DNA of 64,000 nucleotides from Sulfuricurvum sp. (GCA_030692765.1 JAUYUB010000019.1:1-64000); one strand, 5' to 3'. Positions 493 to 8,158 are shown, counted from the first letter of the stretch. Made by a program: numbers and translations. The notes: generated by a model not told the origin, from the sequence alone.

Positions 493-1704
493 ATGGCGCG
501 ATCTTCTGGAATAGCGATATGGAGTGAAACTATCCAAGCTGATATGTATATTCATGTTAATCTTTGGAAAATTGATAAAGAAGATCAAAAAAATTGCCAT
601 TTTATTGATATAGGACTGTTATTTAAAAAAGCAAACAATAAAGGTTGTAATAAAACAATTGAAGAAAAAAACTCTTCGATTGACGATATAGAAAACAATA
701 AAACAGTTGAAGAAAAAGACTCTTCGACTGATGATAAAACTCCTTGTACATCTCTACCAGCTGAATCTAATCAAATAAAAATATATTTACCATTTGCCAT
801 TAAAAAAGATTCCGTGATTGATCTCTATGATAAGATCATTACGAAGAATTCTATTGTTGATATTTTCAATAAATCAACTCTTAAACTTAAAATTGATGAA
901 AAACAAAGTTATACTGAAATAGAGGGTTATTTAAAAGAAGAAGAAGGGTCTTTATTTGTTTCTTCATCAAAAATAAAGATAGATTCTATTGAAGACAATG
1001 TTGTACATATCACACCTATCCATTCAATGGAAGATAACTTTTATATTAGAATGAGAGTTAATTTAGACACAATTACAGTAGAACAATTTTCTCAAATACA
1101 TCATCCTAAAACAAGTTTCCTCCTGCCATCATTCAAAGAAATAGAACATGTGTCATTTTCAATTAATGAACGGAGAGGATTACCGCCAACACCAAGTTAT
1201 GGAATTGCGAATAGTGGCTTAACAATAAAAAGAGTAGACTTTTTTCTTGTCCGAGAATCTGCAGCAGAAATTTTGTCCCAACATTCTCCATTCAAAAGAT
1301 GTCGAGAACTCGAGCATAATTTATGGCATTCTTATTTGCCTGATAAAGCAAAAGATTTTGATAGAAAATTAGCATATCATTGGCAAGAAGGCAATGGTGA
1401 AAAAACGATAGAGCATTTTGGGGCTTTTGCTAAATTTTCTTATAATGCAGATGGGATTAAAGTTATAATCATTTATACAATAACAGTTATACTATTAGGT
1501 GCTATAGCTGGAAGCGTTGGAAATTTAATAAGTGTGAGTTCAGATGTTGGACAAATTATAGATGGTAATTTTTCTTCAATAATAAAGAATAAAGTAGCAG
1601 GTATAATTTTAGCAATGATCGCTTTGGCAATAGTTGTGATGCCATTGACCCAAATAAATAGGTTGAAAGACTTTGCAAAAAAGATGTGTAGAAGATTGAA
1701 ATGA
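493..1704 (+). CDS. Uncharacterised protein with two C-terminal membrane segments
   Basis: I do not recognise a family for this 403-residue protein. The first ~325 residues are hydrophilic and rich in Lys, Glu and Ile. Two hydrophobic segments follow, at about residues 326-348 and 367-385, and a short basic tail (NRLKDFAKKMCRRLK), so it is probably anchored in the inner membrane with a large soluble N-terminal domain. Residues ~53-84 contain a 16-residue tandem duplication (NKTIEEKNSSIDD, then NKTVEEKDSSTDD). AGGA at 482-485 supports the ATG start. The stop overlaps the next start as ATGA (1701-1704), so it is the first gene of a tightly coupled set with two acetyltransferases and a kinase. 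Its base composition is more A+T rich than the housekeeping genes. No function can be inferred. Confidence 0.75.
   Translation: MARSSGIAIWSETIQADMYIHVNLWKIDKEDQKNCHFIDIGLLFKKANNKGCNKTIEEKNSSIDDIENNKTVEEKDSSTDDKTPCTSLPAESNQIKIYLPFAIKKDSVIDLYDKIITKNSIVDIFNKSTLKLKIDEKQSYTEIEGYLKEEEGSLFVSSSKIKIDSIEDNVVHITPIHSMEDNFYIRMRVNLDTITVEQFSQIHHPKTSFLLPSFKEIEHVSFSINERRGLPPTPSYGIANSGLTIKRVDFFLVRESAAEILSQHSPFKRCRELEHNLWHSYLPDKAKDFDRKLAYHWQEGNGEKTIEHFGAFAKFSYNADGIKVIIIYTITVILLGAIAGSVGNLISVSSDVGQIIDGNFSSIIKNKVAGIILAMIALAIVVMPLTQINRLKDFAKKMCRRLK
649..744 (+). repeat. 48-bp in-frame tandem duplication
   Basis: Two copies with a 48-bp period (starting 649 and 697) differ at a few bases and encode 16-residue units NKTIEEKNSSIDD... 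and NKTVEEKDSSTDD... The period is a multiple of three, so the reading frame is kept. Confidence 0.8.
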
Positions 1705-2186
1705 TCAGTAGTCATATACCTACAACCATCATTATTCAAGAAGCTCAACAATATCACAGTCAATTAGATATTTTTTTATTTCTTGTAGAGGCTAGCGAAT
1801 ATTATCCCTCATTTCATGAATGGTATTTTAATAAAGTAGTGCCAGATATTCAAGATGGCAATCGAAAGATTATTTCTGAAATCCGTGATGGTAAAATTGC
1901 AGGAATCGCCATTTTGAAAGACAGTATAGAAGAAAAAAAGATATGTACTTTACGCATTTCACCGGATTTTCAGAATCGTGGAATTGGAGTGAGGCTATTT
2001 AAAAAATCATTTGAAATTCTTCAAACAAATAAACCTTTTTTGACTGTTAGTGAAGAGAAATTACCAGAGTTTCAGAAAATTTTTGACTACTTTAATTTCG
2101 AGTTAACATCTATAGCAGATGGGATGTATCGACATGGAAAAAAAGAGTACGTCTTTAATAATTCGTCTAATATGGAATTGTTATGA
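1701..2186 (+). CDS. GNAT-family N-acetyltransferase
   Basis: A 161-residue protein of the length and layout of a single-domain GNAT acetyltransferase. Beta-strand 4 plus the acetyl-CoA pyrophosphate loop is the segment LRISPDFQNRGIGVRLFKK at about residues 75-95 (Q/R-x-x-G-x-G type motif). A preceding strand, GKIAGIAIL, fits motif D/A. The substrate cannot be told from sequence; GNAT enzymes acetylate amines on proteins, small molecules, aminoacyl-tRNA or antibiotics. The start codon overlaps the stop of the gene before (ATGA at 1701) and its own stop overlaps the next start (ATGA at 2183), so translation of all three genes is probably coupled. The neighbour at 2183 carries a second GNAT domain. 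Confidence 0.8.
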   Translation: MISSHIPTTIIIQEAQQYHSQLDIFLFLVEASEYYPSFHEWYFNKVVPDIQDGNRKIISEIRDGKIAGIAILKDSIEEKKICTLRISPDFQNRGIGVRLFKKSFEILQTNKPFLTVSEEKLPEFQKIFDYFNFELTSIADGMYRHGKKEYVFNNSSNMELL

Positions 2187-3226
2187 GTTTTGGACCAATA
2201 CAAAAACTATTTTTTCAAGATATTAATTTCGATAATCCTTTCTTTAATAGTCTGAAAGAAGATTATCCCGGATTTGAAGTATGGGTTGAAAGAAAAAAAA
2301 GAGATGGTGATAAAGCCTATTATCTTGAAGATGATAATGGGGCTATTGATGCTTTTCTTTATTTAAAAATTGAAGAAGGTCCGATTAGTGATATCACTCC
2401 AGCACTTTTAGTCCCAAGTGCACTTAAAATAGGAACTTTAAAAGTAAATCCTCATGGAACAAGGCTTGGTGAGCGGTTCATAAAAATTATCATCAATCAT
2501 GCAATTGAAAATAATATTGATTTAATTTATGTCACTGTATTCGCTCATCATGTTGCGCTTATATCCTTATTCGAAGAATTCGGATTCATAGAATATGGTA
2601 GTAAAGCGGGAGAGAAAGTCTATATTAAAAATATTGGACAAAAAACAGGTGACATTGTAAAAGACTATCCAGTAGTACCTATTGTGAATAATCACAAATA
2701 TCTAATTTCAATTTATCCTGATTATCATACACAACTTTTTCCTGATTCTATTCTCTTTGGCGAAGATGGTGATGAAATCATACATGACCTCTCTCATACA
2801 AATAGCATCCATAAGATTTATTTATCTGGGTCTTCGGATTCAAACAGAATTGAGTATGGTGATCTAATCGTATTTTACAGAACTTCTGATATTCCAGGGC
2901 GTGCATATTATCGTGCGGTAGCAACATCACTATGTGTAGTTGAAGAAGTTCGACCATCTAGTTCATTTAGTAATGAAGATGATTTTGTAGAGTTCTGCCG
3001 TTCTTATAGTTTATTTGATGAAGGACAGTTACGATATCACTATCGAAAAAATGTGACTGCAATTAAATTTTTATATATTACCGCCTTTAAATATAAAGTA
3101 ATTCGAAAAAAACTCTTAGAAGATATAAAAATTCCAGATGGACGTTGGATTATTGTTCCGCTTGATGATAGTAAGTTTAATCAACTCATATCTATGTCAG
3201 GCATAAGTAATACATATACAAGTTAA
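2183..3226 (+). CDS. GNAT acetyltransferase fused to a PUA/EVE-like C-terminal domain
   Basis: This 347-residue protein has two parts. Residues ~1-150 form a GNAT domain with the motif LKVNPHGTRLGERFIKI (strand 4 and acetyl-CoA loop) and a C-terminal GNAT signature LFEEFGFIEYGS. Residues ~165-345 look like a PUA-fold (EVE/ASCH-like) domain: the segment IEYGDLIVFYRTS followed by a strand YYRAVATSLCVVEEV, then later RWIIVPL, is the pattern of such RNA- or modified-base-binding barrels. The fold call for the second part is by pattern and is less certain than the GNAT call. It overlaps the previous gene (ATGA) and is followed 9 bases later by the kinase gene. The pairing suggests a nucleic-acid or nucleotide substrate; this is inference. 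Confidence 0.7.
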   Translation: MSFGPIQKLFFQDINFDNPFFNSLKEDYPGFEVWVERKKRDGDKAYYLEDDNGAIDAFLYLKIEEGPISDITPALLVPSALKIGTLKVNPHGTRLGERFIKIIINHAIENNIDLIYVTVFAHHVALISLFEEFGFIEYGSKAGEKVYIKNIGQKTGDIVKDYPVVPIVNNHKYLISIYPDYHTQLFPDSILFGEDGDEIIHDLSHTNSIHKIYLSGSSDSNRIEYGDLIVFYRTSDIPGRAYYRAVATSLCVVEEVRPSSSFSNEDDFVEFCRSYSLFDEGQLRYHYRKNVTAIKFLYITAFKYKVIRKKLLEDIKIPDGRWIIVPLDDSKFNQLISMSGISNTYTS

Positions 3227-3235
3227 TAGTCTGCA

Positions 3236-3778
3236 ATGTATAAAGGTACTATCTTTATCGCTGGAATACATGGTGTAGGGAAAAGTACTTTATGTAAAGA
3301 AATCGCAAACCAACTCTCAATTAAACATCTTACTGCAAGTCAGATTATTCAAAAATATACAGATACCTCGTTGGAAATTTCAACTAAGTATGTTTCTAAC
3401 ATACCAACTAATCAAATAATATTGTCGGAAGGACTAAAAAATGAGATAATCGGTCAGCGGGTAATACTGCTTGATGGACATTTTGTCTTACTTAATGATG
3501 AAGGTACCCCTTCAATGATAGATATTTCAACGTTTGAGAGGTTATTACTTAGTGTCATTATTACAATTGTAGATGACCCAATAGCAATATCAAGAAGATT
3601 GTTTTTACGAGATAATGTTTATTATGAGGTTGATCTTCTCTCAAAGATGCAGACTACTGAATTGCAACAAGCAAATGCAATCGCTTTGAATTTAAATATT
3701 AAAACAATCACATTAGATTTACGACTTCATAAAGATCCCATAAGTATTTTTTCTAGTTTATTATCCACATACATATAA
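3236..3778 (+). CDS. P-loop nucleotide kinase-like ATPase
   Basis: The 180-residue protein begins with a Walker A motif, GIHGVGKST (residues 10-18), directly after the first beta strand, as in adenylate kinase-like enzymes. An LLDGHFVLL segment at about residue 80 fits the second strand, and RRLFLRDN (about residue 120) resembles the lid arginines of small-molecule kinases. The length is typical of nucleoside/nucleotide kinases. The substrate is unknown. The ATG at 3236 follows the previous stop by 9 bases with no good ribosome site, so it may rely on coupling. Its last 52 bases overlap the convergent ASCH gene (3727-4170), which is unusual. Confidence 0.7.
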   Translation: MYKGTIFIAGIHGVGKSTLCKEIANQLSIKHLTASQIIQKYTDTSLEISTKYVSNIPTNQIILSEGLKNEIIGQRVILLDGHFVLLNDEGTPSMIDISTFERLLLSVIITIVDDPIAISRRLFLRDNVYYEVDLLSKMQTTELQQANAIALNLNIKTITLDLRLHKDPISIFSSLLSTYI

Positions 3779-4170
3779 GATTGTGGCGGTCTAAAATTTG
3801 GAATATGATTAGAAGGTCGAATAGGTCTTTTTAAAATTTTAAGATTTTTTATTTTTATAGAGTAGGCACTCTCTTTTCCGTCAAAATAATTAAAATATGC
3901 ATCTTCAGCAATTCCGGCATGCTCTTTACAGTTTTCCCATACTCTTTCTGGTGTTCCTGAAACTATTCCATCGAATTCGAATGATGCGACGATGCATTGT
4001 ACTGGCGCAGATGCATATACAAAAATTTTGCGGACAGGTCTTGTTTTAAAAATAGCCTTTCTGAACTCGAATTTTTTTTCTCCACTCAAAATTTTTTCTA
4101 CAAATTTGGGTCTGATTGATATAAGGACATCAGACATTTCAGAACTTATCAACCCAATTGGTGCATTCAT
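3727..4170 (-). CDS. ASCH-domain protein
   Basis: A 147-residue protein with the ASCH signature near its start: LISIRPKFVEKILSGEKKFEFRK (about residues 16-38), followed by KIFVYASAPVQCIVASFEF. ASCH domains share the PUA fold; E. coli YqfB is a small ASCH protein that hydrolyses N4-acetylcytidine, while others are thought to bind RNA. The ATG at 4170 has AAGGA seven bases upstream, so it is preferred over the internal ATG at 4137. It faces the acetyltransferase/kinase set tail to tail and overlaps the kinase gene by 52 bases. Placing an ASCH protein next to two GNAT proteins suggests a linked acetyl-nucleoside or RNA function, which is inference. Confidence 0.75.
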   Translation of the reverse strand: MNAPIGLISSEMSDVLISIRPKFVEKILSGEKKFEFRKAIFKTRPVRKIFVYASAPVQCIVASFEFDGIVSGTPERVWENCKEHAGIAEDAYFNYFDGKESAYSIKIKNLKILKRPIRPSNHIPNFRPPQSYMYVDNKLEKILMGSL

Positions 4171-4711
4171 CTATCATTCCTTTTCAATAGCGATAATTTA
4201 GATATTAGCAAATAATGAGCCAATTAAAAAAAATATAACAATTTGTATGATTTTACTTCAAATATCCTCAAAGAATTGCCTGTAATTTTATGGGTGTATA
4301 TCATTGAAGTAAAAAAAGATGATTATATATGAAATGAATCTATGTCAAAGGAAGAAGCTATTAAACTTCTGTTTTAAATACCAGTATTTGGAATACAGAT
4401 GTGGGTATACATAATTTAATGTTGTTAGGCTGTATTTAAGTAGCTTAAAAAGTGTCATAAAATTTAAACAATATTGCTTGAAAGCTCATAAGATAGGCGC
4501 TGTATGACTAATATCCGTATTTGGGTTATGTAATACCAGTATTTGCACCCAAATAAGCTGTCAAAAAAGGTGTCATTTTTGATAAATGTATTATACAAAA
4601 TCCCTAAAAATAGGGGTTTCAATGGTGAAGTGCCTATCAGGGATCAAAATCACGGCGTGTAACTTTATCTATTTATGTTAATTACGATACAAACATAATG
4701 ATTTTTTCAGT
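4171..4711. other. Repeat-rich intergenic region without a gene
   Basis: These 541 A+T-rich bases encode no convincing protein. They contain a 13-bp direct repeat (ataccagtatttg at 4378-4390 and 4533-4545), a perfect 8-bp inverted repeat (ATTTGGGT 4519-4526, ACCCAAAT 4547-4554) and a hairpin of CCCTA/TAGGG near 4600. TGTCA elements lie at 4453-4457, 4559-4563 and 4571-4575, and GATAGGCGCT (4492-4501) has an inverted counterpart AGTGCCTATC (4629-4638). Several are diverged copies of elements at 221-323. The region probably also carries the promoter of the two-component genes. Confidence 0.7.
4485..4580 (+). repeat. Diverged direct copy of the 221-327 intergenic module
   Basis: CTCATAAGATAGGCGCT (4485-4501) and CTGTCAAAAAAGG followed by TGTCATTTTT (4558-4580) repeat, in the same order and orientation, CTCATAAAATAGGCACT (221-237) and GTGTCAAAAAAG followed by TGTCATTTTA (307-328). 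Spacing between the two parts differs (about 70 against 85 bases). The two copies bracket the accessory set 493-4170. Confidence 0.6.
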
Positions 4712-4732
4712 ATGCCTAAGGAGATTAAGACT

Positions 4733-5413
4733 TTGCGAGTGTTGTTGGTTGAAGATGATAAAAAAATTTCTGACTATCTTGCTCAAGGTCTGAAAGAATC
4801 GGGCTATATCGTTGATCCTTGCTTGGATGGTGAAGATGGCTTTTATTTTTTATCAACTTATACTTATGATCTCGTTATTTTGGATCTTATGCTTCCTAAA
4901 ATGGATGGCTTTACTCTTATTCAAAAAATTCGTGATATTGATTTAAAGGTTCCAATACTTATTTTGAGCGCCAAGCGAAGCGTATCTGATCGAATAAAAG
5001 GTTTGCAACTTGGAGGTGATGATTACCTTACTAAGCCATTTTCGTTTGGAGAACTTTTGGCCAGAGTTCAAGCTCTTTTGAGACGTTCAACGACAAATAT
5101 AATTCCTTCTCAGAACTCTATACAATTAGGCAATATAACTATTGATCTAATTACAAAAAAAGTAAGCCGAGAAGGAGAAACAATTGAGCTTCAAAAAAAA
5201 GAATTTTTGCTGTTAGAGTATTTTATGAGGCATCCTGGATGTGTACTATCTAAAACCCAAATACTAGAAGGAGTGTGGGATAGTCAGTTTGATCCTCAGA
5301 CGAATGTTGTTGATGTTCTTGTATTCCGATTGAGAAATAAAATAGATAAAAATTTTGAAAAAAAGACAATATCTACACTAAGAGGAGTTGGTTATATTTT
5401 TGAGCCGAATTAG
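4733..5413 (+). CDS. OmpR/PhoB-type response regulator
   Basis: Receiver domain plus winged-helix DNA-binding domain. Counting from the proposed start, the acidic pocket is VEDD near residue 7, the phospho-acceptor is Asp51 in the segment VILDLMLPKMDG, Ser/Thr is in LILSAK and the conserved Lys101 is in YLTKPF. The C-terminal half (from about residue 125) has the winged-helix pattern ending TLRGVGYIFEPN. A TTG at 4733 preceded nine bases earlier by TAAGGAG (4717-4723) gives the family-typical N-terminus MRVLLVEDD; the upstream ATG at 4712 (seven residues longer) has no ribosome site. The gene overlaps the histidine kinase downstream. It probably controls the outer membrane protein gene at 6914. 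Confidence 0.88.
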   Translation: MRVLLVEDDKKISDYLAQGLKESGYIVDPCLDGEDGFYFLSTYTYDLVILDLMLPKMDGFTLIQKIRDIDLKVPILILSAKRSVSDRIKGLQLGGDDYLTKPFSFGELLARVQALLRRSTTNIIPSQNSIQLGNITIDLITKKVSREGETIELQKKEFLLLEYFMRHPGCVLSKTQILEGVWDSQFDPQTNVVDVLVFRLRNKIDKNFEKKTISTLRGVGYIFEPN

Positions 5414-6791
5414 TACTAAAATCACCATTTTTTATGTTTTGTCCTTTATGATAGGAGCTTTGCTTCTTTTTTTTCTAACGGGTTACATTCTAGACACGTT
5501 GCTAAAAAGCAAAGATAAAGACCTTTTAGAAATCAAATTTCAAGAGTATGCATTATTACTGGAGAAAGATGGGGTAGCAGGTTTACAATTTAGAATTTTA
5601 AATCACAATATCCTCGATAGAAACCATTTTCTCATTCGCTATCAGTCTGATGCAGGAAAAACATTGTTTCTTCATGCTCCAGAATCTATGGAAATCATTG
5701 GGCGAACAAATACGTTAGCAGAGCTTGATGAGTTTTTGAAGGTAAATGCAGATAAAGGACAATGGCTTGAACTACCTAGCCCTGGCTTTGGAGATGATAT
5801 TGAAATTTTGTCTAAAAAGCTTCCTAATGGAGATATATTACAAATAGGAAAGGACACGGAGGACAGAGAAGCATTCTTGTGGCAATTTATAGAGTCATTT
5901 TTTATTGGCTTAATCCCTTTTGTATTTATTTCATTCTTCATGGGACACTTATTTTCCAAAAAAATACTTAGCCCTATACGATGGCTTACTGATACGATTT
6001 TAGAAATTCGTTCGGGCTTTTCAGGCTCAAGAGTTCCATTAATGGGTAATAAAGACGAACTTGATAATTTAGGAGCCCTGTTTAATCAAATGCAGGATCA
6101 GAATGAAAAGTTGGTAGAAGGGATGAAAGAAACACTAGACAATGTTGCCCATGACCTTCGAACCCCCGTGATGAGAATGCAAAATGCTGTCCACGTTGTA
6201 TTAAAGGATGTAGCAAGCGACAAGCATCTTTCTACATTCCAAAATGCACTAATCGAATGTCAAGAAACGTCGGACACCATCTTAAAAATGCTTGATACCA
6301 TAATGGATATATCAGAAGCTGAGACAGGGATAATGTCTCTGAATGAAGAAGAGTTATCCCTTTATGAGCTTGTAGAAAATGTGCTAAATATTTATAGGTT
6401 TATTGGTGAAGATAAATACATTGAGATTAAAAATGAAATCCCTCCAAATTTATTAATAAATGGAGATAAAGGACGATTACTACAAGCATTTGCAAATATT
6501 GTTGATAATGCTATTAAATTTTCTCCTGATCACTCTTGTATCATGATAAGAGGATTGAAGCAAGATAAAAGTGTCATTTTGGAAATCACAGACGAGGGAT
6601 TGGGTATCCCAGAGCATGACATGCCTAAAATATGGGATCGACTGTATCGTGGCGATAGTAGTAGATCAACGCAAGGGCTTGGACTTGGTCTAAGCTTTGT
6701 AAAGGCAATCATGAATGCTCATAAAGCTCACATTGAAGTAGAAAATAATCAGATCAAAGGATGCACATTTCGAATTCTTTTCCCCGCTTAG
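5400..6791 (+). CDS. Membrane sensor histidine kinase
   Basis: The partner of the response regulator. The order is: transmembrane segment 1 (about residues 8-30), a periplasmic sensor region of ~130 residues, transmembrane segment 2 (about 165-187), HAMP linker, HisKA dimerisation domain with His251 in NVAHDLRTPVMRM, then the ATPase domain with N box NIVDNAIKF, G1 box DEGLGIP and G2 box GLGLGLSFV. The start is uncertain: TTG at 5400 or TTG at 5388. AGGAG at 5383-5387 abuts the latter and is 12 bases before the former, so 5400 is preferred. Either start lies inside the regulator gene (stop 5413), giving translational coupling. The periplasmic domain gives no clue to the signal. Confidence 0.88.
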   Translation: MSRISTKITIFYVLSFMIGALLLFFLTGYILDTLLKSKDKDLLEIKFQEYALLLEKDGVAGLQFRILNHNILDRNHFLIRYQSDAGKTLFLHAPESMEIIGRTNTLAELDEFLKVNADKGQWLELPSPGFGDDIEILSKKLPNGDILQIGKDTEDREAFLWQFIESFFIGLIPFVFISFFMGHLFSKKILSPIRWLTDTILEIRSGFSGSRVPLMGNKDELDNLGALFNQMQDQNEKLVEGMKETLDNVAHDLRTPVMRMQNAVHVVLKDVASDKHLSTFQNALIECQETSDTILKMLDTIMDISEAETGIMSLNEEELSLYELVENVLNIYRFIGEDKYIEIKNEIPPNLLINGDKGRLLQAFANIVDNAIKFSPDHSCIMIRGLKQDKSVILEITDEGLGIPEHDMPKIWDRLYRGDSSRSTQGLGLGLSFVKAIMNAHKAHIEVENNQIKGCTFRILFPA

Positions 6792-6798
6792 CTTCTAT

Positions 6799-6816
6799 CA
6801 TTACAAAAATGTAATG
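6799..6816. repeat. Inverted repeat after the histidine kinase
   Basis: CATTACA and TGTAATG flank four A residues, a perfect 7-bp stem eight bases after the kinase stop codon. It lacks a following T-run, so it may be an operator half or a processing hairpin rather than a terminator. Confidence 0.5.
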
Positions 6817-6820
6817 ATTC

Positions 6821-6853
6821 TGACATATTCATGTCATCTTCATTATCTATAAT
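6821..6853 (+). promoter_or_regulatory. Operator-like palindrome and -10 box of the Omp85-like gene
   Basis: TGACAT and ATGTCA (6821-6836, 4-base spacer) form a perfect palindrome that ends 11 bases before a TATAAT (6848-6853). It therefore covers the place of the -35 box, where an activator or repressor would act. The adjacent response regulator is the obvious candidate. Confidence 0.55.
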
Positions 6854-6913
6854 TTTAGCATTAACTGCTGTTAGAGTAACAGAGGTAATAATAAAATTAT
6901 TAGAAGGTCAAGT

Positions 6914-8158
6914 ATGATTTTAAAAGTATTTTTTGTTGTCGTTAGTCTGTTTTTATCAAGTGAAGTTTTTTCTCAGTCTGACTACGATGAACGATTTGAA
7001 GTAAACAGTATTGAAATTCAAGGAAATGGTTCAACAAAAAAAGAAGCTCTCATAGAGATACTCCCAAGACAGCTCCCCACTACAATGACTAATGCTGAAA
7101 TAGCAGAGTATAGCCGTAGAATTAAAAATCTTGGGATATTTGATCTTGTTAAAGTAAGTAAGATTGAAAATAAATTGCTTCTTGAAGTACGTCGTAAGAG
7201 AACACTTTCACCTATTATCGGTCTCTCTACCGGAAAAACGATTCAGGATACCTCTGCCGTGTTAGGTTTAAATGAACATGATTTTTTAGGGGATGGAACA
7301 AAGCTTGGCGGGAAAGTTGGTTACAATGATCGAAACTTAAATTTTATGGCATGGATTGATGAGCATAGCTATCGTAACAATAGATGGTCAAGAGAGCTTG
7401 AAGTTTATAGATTGAGTTCCTCTTTTCGTTTTAAAGATGATGAAAATGATGCTTGGACAAGAAACCGCTTGGGCGCTTTCTTTGAACTGGTCAGCCCATT
7501 TAAGTATGATTCACCTTTATTGTATGAATTCCAGGTACAGGTTTATCGTGAAGATTTTTCAAATGTTAATATAGACAAGAATCTAGAAAGTGCAACTTAT
7601 TTTGGAAGCTTATTTGAAGTGGTCTACGACCGATATAATTGGGATGACCTTCACCCGCATGGTTTTAAAGGTGCTATTGAAATGCGACCTGGAGTGATGA
7701 CAAATGGGAAATTTCGAGGAGAAGCGGTGGGCAAGTTTATTGCAGCAACTCCATTAGCAGAAAAAACAAGCTTGGTTGCGAATGGAAAAGTAGCCACAGT
7801 TAATTCTGGCAATGTGAATCACAGCTTACTCATCGGTAGCCAGTCTGGAGTAAGAGGCCTTGATGATTCATTCTATAGAAATTCAGCGCTTAGTTATCTT
7901 AACCTCGAAATAAGACATTCAATGGAAGTATGGGAAAGAACGTTTATACAGCCAATTATCTTCCTAGATATGGCACGATTTCGTCCTATGGACTCAGAGG
8001 GAAATAATCAAGGATGGGTAAATGCATTAAGCACAGGAGCTGGTGTTAGACTCATTCCAACTGGTTATACAAATCTTTTACTTAGGGCTGATATAGCAAG
8101 ATTACATACACCATCCGAAGATTGGCTTTTTCAAATAGGGATCACTCAGTATTTTTAA
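6914..8158 (+). CDS. Small Omp85/BamA-like outer membrane protein
   Basis: A 414-residue protein with a signal peptide (about residues 1-20, ending SEVFS), a single POTRA-like domain (about 28-100: FEVNSIEIQGNGSTKKEALI ... GIFDLVKVSKIENKLLLEVRRKR) and a beta-barrel of ~310 residues that ends in aromatic Phe (FQIGITQYF), the usual recognition signal for outer membrane assembly. Only one POTRA repeat separates it from true BamA, which is about twice as long; it is closer in size to minimal Omp85 or two-partner secretion-type proteins. AGAAGG lies about seven bases before the ATG. It lies 122 bases after the sensor kinase behind its own promoter and palindrome, suggesting an envelope-stress or export role under that system. 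No secreted partner gene is next to it. Confidence 0.7.
   Translation: MILKVFFVVVSLFLSSEVFSQSDYDERFEVNSIEIQGNGSTKKEALIEILPRQLPTTMTNAEIAEYSRRIKNLGIFDLVKVSKIENKLLLEVRRKRTLSPIIGLSTGKTIQDTSAVLGLNEHDFLGDGTKLGGKVGYNDRNLNFMAWIDEHSYRNNRWSRELEVYRLSSSFRFKDDENDAWTRNRLGAFFELVSPFKYDSPLLYEFQVQVYREDFSNVNIDKNLESATYFGSLFEVVYDRYNWDDLHPHGFKGAIEMRPGVMTNGKFRGEAVGKFIAATPLAEKTSLVANGKVATVNSGNVNHSLLIGSQSGVRGLDDSFYRNSALSYLNLEIRHSMEVWERTFIQPIIFLDMARFRPMDSEGNNQGWVNALSTGAGVRLIPTGYTNLLLRADIARLHTPSEDWLFQIGITQYF

Follow-up and report, generated by a model that had tools for sequence, protein, structure and literature searches.

GNAT acetyltransferase domains fused to an EVE domain are known from operons in which the GNAT-EVE protein is accompanied by an ASCH protein and often by an AAA_17 protein as well; Bell et al. 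2020 (PMC7641849) predicted such operons to be toxin–antitoxin systems, noted their frequency in prophages, and included PIN-GNAT-EVE fusions among them. The GNAT-EVE and ASCH proteins are also listed in PADLOC as PDC-M11 (components PDC-M11A and PDC-M11B), PDCs being putative defence candidates from guilt-by-embedding, most of them without experimental test (PMC12988326). In the record of the lambda-like Escherichia phage PhiR47_2 (PV340567), the two proteins are annotated as GevT (toxin) and GevA (antitoxin), and the pair is located beside cI. Near-identical copies of this pair were found in 274 of 5,426 complete E. coli genomes. A search of the open-access literature for GevAT or PDC-M11 returned no text.

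The window, a stretch of 64,000 nucleotides from Sulfuricurvum sp. (GCA_030692765.1 JAUYUB010000019.1:1-64000), carries the following set of five genes.

493–1704, + strand: MEM, C-terminally anchored membrane protein (ORF of 403 aa)
1701–2186, + strand: GNAT2, standalone GNAT acetyltransferase (161 aa; Pfam Acetyltransf_1, 2e-5)
2183–3226, + strand: GevT-like GNAT-EVE/PUA protein (PDC-M11A), putative toxin (347 aa; PDLC04419, 3e-121)
3236–3778, + strand: AAA_17 P-loop kinase, adenylate-kinase-like (180 aa; PF13207, 9e-13)
3727–4170, − strand: GevA-like ASCH protein (PDC-M11B), putative antitoxin (147 aa; PDLC04425, 2e-46)

All five ORFs were recovered intact by ORF calling where the original prediction had placed them. 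The domains claimed for them were also recovered, the Pfam match of the ASCH protein being weak (0.017) and the PADLOC matches of the GNAT-PUA (GevT-like) and ASCH proteins strong. The MEM, GNAT2, and GNAT-PUA genes are connected, as had been described, by two ATGA overlaps (1701–1704 and 2183–2186). The kinase gene starts 10 bases past the end of the GevT gene, and the ASCH gene is convergent with the kinase gene, its 3′ end overlapping that gene by 52 bases; the ASCH protein probably starts at an internal Met near 4137, as judged from its homologues. The set lies between queE and queD and has a G+C content of about 30–33% versus 42–45% further downstream, in agreement with its description as an A+T-rich insert within a queuosine locus.

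The PDC-M11A profile covers residues 6–343 of the GNAT-PUA protein, i.e. its full length, and in full-length comparison with GevT and GevA of PhiR47_2, the GNAT-PUA and ASCH proteins are 42% and 45% identical, respectively. Given the PADLOC candidate, the labels in the phage record, and the prediction by Bell et al. (2020), the GevT/GevA core is already known, and the term “uncharacterised” in the original prediction does not hold for the core genes. The locus differs from GevAT of PhiR47_2 and PDC-M11, where two genes lie on the same strand with ASCH immediately after GevT, in that it comprises five genes with a convergent ASCH gene beyond the kinase gene. The operons of Bell et al. (2020) share with it the combination of GNAT-EVE, ASCH, and AAA_17 kinase, but a membrane protein and a standalone GNAT were not found described in the accessible part of that paper (PMC7641849). 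The aminoacyl-tRNA-acetylating GNAT toxins of the TacT, AtaT, and ItaT type likewise carry a GNAT domain in a toxin–antitoxin setting, but GevT has in addition the EVE fusion and an atypical acetyl-CoA loop, and ASCH replaces the usual DNA-binding antitoxin. The Q/RxxGxG loop typical of these toxins is absent from the GevT family, which has G-T-K/R-L-G (GTKLG-like) throughout; the first Gly of the usual GxG is missing, and acetyl transfer by GevT is therefore not certain. The EVE domain itself scores in four of the 24 aligned GevT-family members, and the GNAT-PUA protein of the window gives no EVE score.

The surroundings of the five genes were then read for the borders of the insert, which are as follows.

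167–190, + strand: current queE 3′ end (WDQKFGV*), at the left cassette junction
191–400: cassette left end, non-coding, with the TCCTA-N4-TAGGA palindrome and conserved AAATAGGCA; ends of this kind also in four sister cassettes
4334–4638: cassette right end, non-coding, with the CCTAAAAATAGGG palindrome and GTGCCTAT; 73% identity to G007 over 335 bases, also in G035 and G005
4639–4662, + strand: right cassette junction, with what remains of the original queE 3′ end (RDQNHGV*)

The target 3′ end is thus duplicated on both sides of the insert, and empty sites were found in 17 of the relatives read (queE–queD spacing of 3–77 bases), as for a site-specific integrative element. A double queE end with related palindromic non-coding termini is also present in four other genomes (G010, G007, G035, and G005; loci L076, L083, L181, and L187), the cargo being AbiD plus SIR2 (ThsA-like), PDC-S60, a DUF2326/PDC-M68B protein, and LeoA/LeoBC; therefore the cargo of all five cassettes, including that of the window, matches PADLOC families. 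Judged from its termini and these comparisons, the segment 167–4662 is an integrase-less cassette inserted at the queE 3′ end with interchangeable defence-type cargo, the five-gene set being the cargo in this case. An integrase (PF00589) was sought inside all five cassettes and none was found, the nearest on the contig of the window being a fragment at 71.8 kb; since the cassettes hold no integrase, their mobilisation would depend on homologous recombination or on an integrase acting in trans. Beyond the cassette, at 4712–8158, lie two-component and outer-membrane-type genes. Other insertions between queE and queD, with a single queE end, were observed in G033 (L080) and G019 (L081); both encode a GGDEF-EAL-like protein together with a small protein and an outer-membrane protein of receptor-like type, and L081 has a BrnT toxin gene in addition.

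The same set was found in other genomes, as the original prediction of a single recurring set requires. In Nitrosophilus labii, homologues of all five genes (identities of 24%, 53%, 44%, 41%, and 54%) are in the same order and orientations as in the window, indicating that the set is not due to chance. Both the plasmid and the chromosome of N. labii carry the set (L046 and L045) within an 11.7 kb stretch that is 98.4% identical between the replicons, and the plasmid copy lies beside Tn7-like genes, which suggests recent transfer. The full set is also present, in other orders, in Pseudomonas sp. CIP-10, Methylobacterium bullatum, and Paenibacillus cellulosilyticus, giving overall three phyla and four gene orders.

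Among the 397 genomes of Campylobacterota, the only phylum counted genome by genome, GevT was found in 18 and MEM in nine, and all nine MEM genomes have GevT at the same locus (the chance of all nine falling within the 18 is 8e-14, assuming independence and ignoring relatedness). With two MEM queries, seven of 72,556 plasmid records were identified, all seven being GevT records as well. A MEM query identified five viral contigs, each with GevT, and MEM is directly upstream in nine of the 80 viral GevT contigs (MEM-GevT-ASCH); viral scans begun from single MEM proteins (L057, L042) or from GNAT2 of the window found nothing. The MEM-GevT-ASCH arrangement was also identified in seven E. coli genomes, and in the one examined (strain C2, NZ_CP010117; L169, 8924–11438) it lies in a P2-like prophage, with cI on one side and the integrase gene on the other. 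Every MEM homologue found with a complete neighbourhood adjoins a GevT gene, and in G438 a fragment of MEM accompanies kinase and ASCH at the edge of a contig, a position at which GevT would fall beyond the break. A chance neighbourhood is ruled out by this co-occurrence (nine of nine genomes and seven of seven plasmids). Most GevT loci are without MEM and GNAT2, indicating that both are accessory.

Taking together the known core, the recurrent new accessories, and the position as cargo, the best explanation is that the five genes probably form one unit, an enlarged GevAT-type (PDC-M11) toxin–antitoxin or abortive defence module carried by the queE cassette. A defence or toxin-control role, one of those originally proposed, is the likeliest class in view of the PADLOC candidate, the GevT/GevA record, the prophage and plasmid locations, and the cargo of the sister cassettes. 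Counted against the module is the convergent ASCH gene outside the toxin operon, which is unusual for a toxin–antitoxin pair; this arrangement recurs in N. labii and in some viral loci.

The same counts bear on the reading that the GevT–GevA pair, with or without the kinase, is by itself the system and that MEM and GNAT2 are a separate small system travelling along. The many GevT loci lacking both genes fit this reading, as does the absence of a deep correlation of distances between MEM and GevT: r is 0.72 overall and 0.02 (p=0.43) after removal of close relatives, for which reason co-evolution is not used here as proof. Two independent blocks lying side by side are unlikely, however, since MEM was not found away from GevT wherever the neighbourhood was complete, and since the gene orders are shuffled around GevT.

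As to the accessory members of the proposed five-gene module, GNAT2 has a canonical acetyl-CoA loop (QNRGIG), and its alignment by hhalign with the GNAT domain of the GevT family gave 97% probability (5.8e-11); by this profile comparison GNAT2 is a paralogue of the GNAT domain of GevT itself. Relatives of GNAT2 were also found away from GevT, in Variovorax and R. leguminosarum. On a plasmid of Variovorax sp. SRS16 (L061), a short GNAT2 relative adjoins a Wadjet JetD-domain gene and not GevT. In the kinase family the motifs GxxGxGK and DxH are invariant, and among natural proteins of solved structure the archaeal adenylate kinases are closest to its profile (1e-14). In a genome of the same genus as the window (G026; L053, 1091–2032), kinase and ASCH are fused into a protein of 313 aa, the gene for which adjoins the GevT gene.

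The MEM family gave no match in Pfam, NCBIfam, PADLOC, or PHROG. The original prediction described a two-span membrane protein; the number of C-terminal spans is one or two and is not conserved among MEM homologues, and “C-terminally anchored” therefore fits better. In the model of a viral homologue (L130; pLDDT 82, pTM 0.80), an N-terminal beta-sandwich domain precedes the anchor. The fold of this beta domain, and nothing else of MEM, is suggestive of ribophorin I/OST1 (Z 11–12; for L130, Z 12.1 and rmsd 3.2 Å over 186 residues) and of the M1 aminopeptidase N-domain (Z 9), with rmsd of 3–4 Å; MEM differs from both in that sequence similarity was not detected and a peptidase domain is lacking. 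Foldseek with the better MEM model against PDB and BFVD gave no significant match (best E 4e-3), and the likeness is therefore only suggestive and says nothing about function. A likeness to pentameric ligand-gated channels in a first model (pLDDT 60, E at least 0.1, TM-score about 0.15) was not supported by the better model, and a DpdG match of one MEM relative (0.005) was dropped as too weak. Within the MEM gene of the window, two 40-base direct repeats with 90% identity are present at 649–736, in a stretch missing from the homologues.

The ASCH protein was compared by profile with solved structures, and ZmASCH of Zymomonas mobilis (PDB 5guq) was the closest (2e-28). ZmASCH binds ssRNA and has a weak Mg-dependent RNase activity that needs Tyr47, Lys53, and Ser128 (PMC5615036). 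In the RNA-binding cleft, Tyr47 and Ser128 are invariant in all 19 ASCH relatives, but Lys53 is not conserved, the protein of the window having Gln at this position; ZmASCH is not known as an antitoxin. The N4-acetylcytidine amidohydrolase YqfB uses Lys21, Thr24 (nucleophile), and Glu74 for catalysis (PMC6972931), and of these the ASCH relatives keep Lys21 (19 of 19), have Glu in place of Thr24 (19 of 19), and keep Glu74 in one of 19. Lacking the catalytic Thr, they are unlikely to deacetylate, and the YqfB-like deacetylase was rejected as a candidate.

A rival reading is the view of Iyer et al. 2013, as reported by Bell et al. 2020 (PMC7641849), namely that a modified DNA base is the substrate of acetylation by the GNAT-EVE protein, helped by the kinase, so that the cell's own DNA is marked or restriction is blocked, and that ASCH reads the mark. 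In its favour, EVE and ASCH are domains that recognise modified bases, and HTH-ASCH fusions and associations with type I R-M systems have been described (PMC7641849); long ASCH forms with an N-terminal HTH-like extension were likewise found in this analysis (L058 and L059). Nevertheless, none of the five genes encodes a DNA methylase, glycosylase, or nuclease, the fusions to PIN RNase domains and the cleavage of ssRNA by ZmASCH (PMC5615036) favour RNA, and the phage record names the pair toxin and antitoxin, so that a role on DNA bases is improbable. The weakest alternative, the cycle of acetylation and deacetylation on a nucleoside or nucleotide that the original prediction had considered, in which ASCH is a YqfB-like amidohydrolase and the kinase serves salvage, finds support in the joint presence of two GNATs with an ASCH fold and a protein resembling nucleotide kinases and in the retention of YqfB Lys21 and Arg26, but is very improbable given the replaced nucleophile, the loss of Glu74, the closer relation to ZmASCH, and a mobile, prophage-borne distribution that does not fit salvage, to which nothing in the analysis points.

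For the extended GevAT-type module, a mechanism is proposed in six steps, given here in the order of falling confidence. The module would protect against phages or stabilise its carrier through release of the toxin. GevT would be a toxin acting on RNA, most likely by acetylating tRNA or aminoacyl-tRNA chosen by the EVE domain, leading to a block of translation; RNA, notably tRNA, is suggested as the target by the known GNAT toxins, the PIN fusions within the family, and the relationship to ZmASCH. The ASCH protein would neutralise GevT by binding either GevT or its RNA target, and not by deacetylation. GNAT2 would work together with GevT, for example as heterodimer partner, and MEM would use its beta-sandwich, which is probably cytosolic, to tether, sense for, or gate GevT at the inner membrane. 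The kinase would modify a nucleotide or RNA end, or control the toxin. A bolder reading, offered tentatively as possible and yet somewhat doubtful, is that of a membrane-linked, five-component acetyltransferase defence, in which two paralogous GNATs, one of them EVE-guided, and MEM, as a tail-anchored protein with a ribophorin/M1-N-like beta-sandwich, would couple sensing of phage at the membrane to RNA acetylation; this defence would be spread by a family of integrase-less cassettes for which the queE 3′ end is a hotspot of defence genes.

What is new relative to the known core, as far as the open-access literature shows, is the standalone GNAT2 and MEM as recurrent accessories, neither of which was found in the accessible part of Bell et al. 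(2020; PMC7641849). With them, a candidate system of two or three genes becomes a module with named accessory parts that can be tested, and the E. coli prophages carrying MEM beside GevT and GevA are a convenient model. The queE cassette is a place to seek more defence genes in the genus of the window. If MEM is needed, this toxin–antitoxin family would gain a link to the cell envelope.
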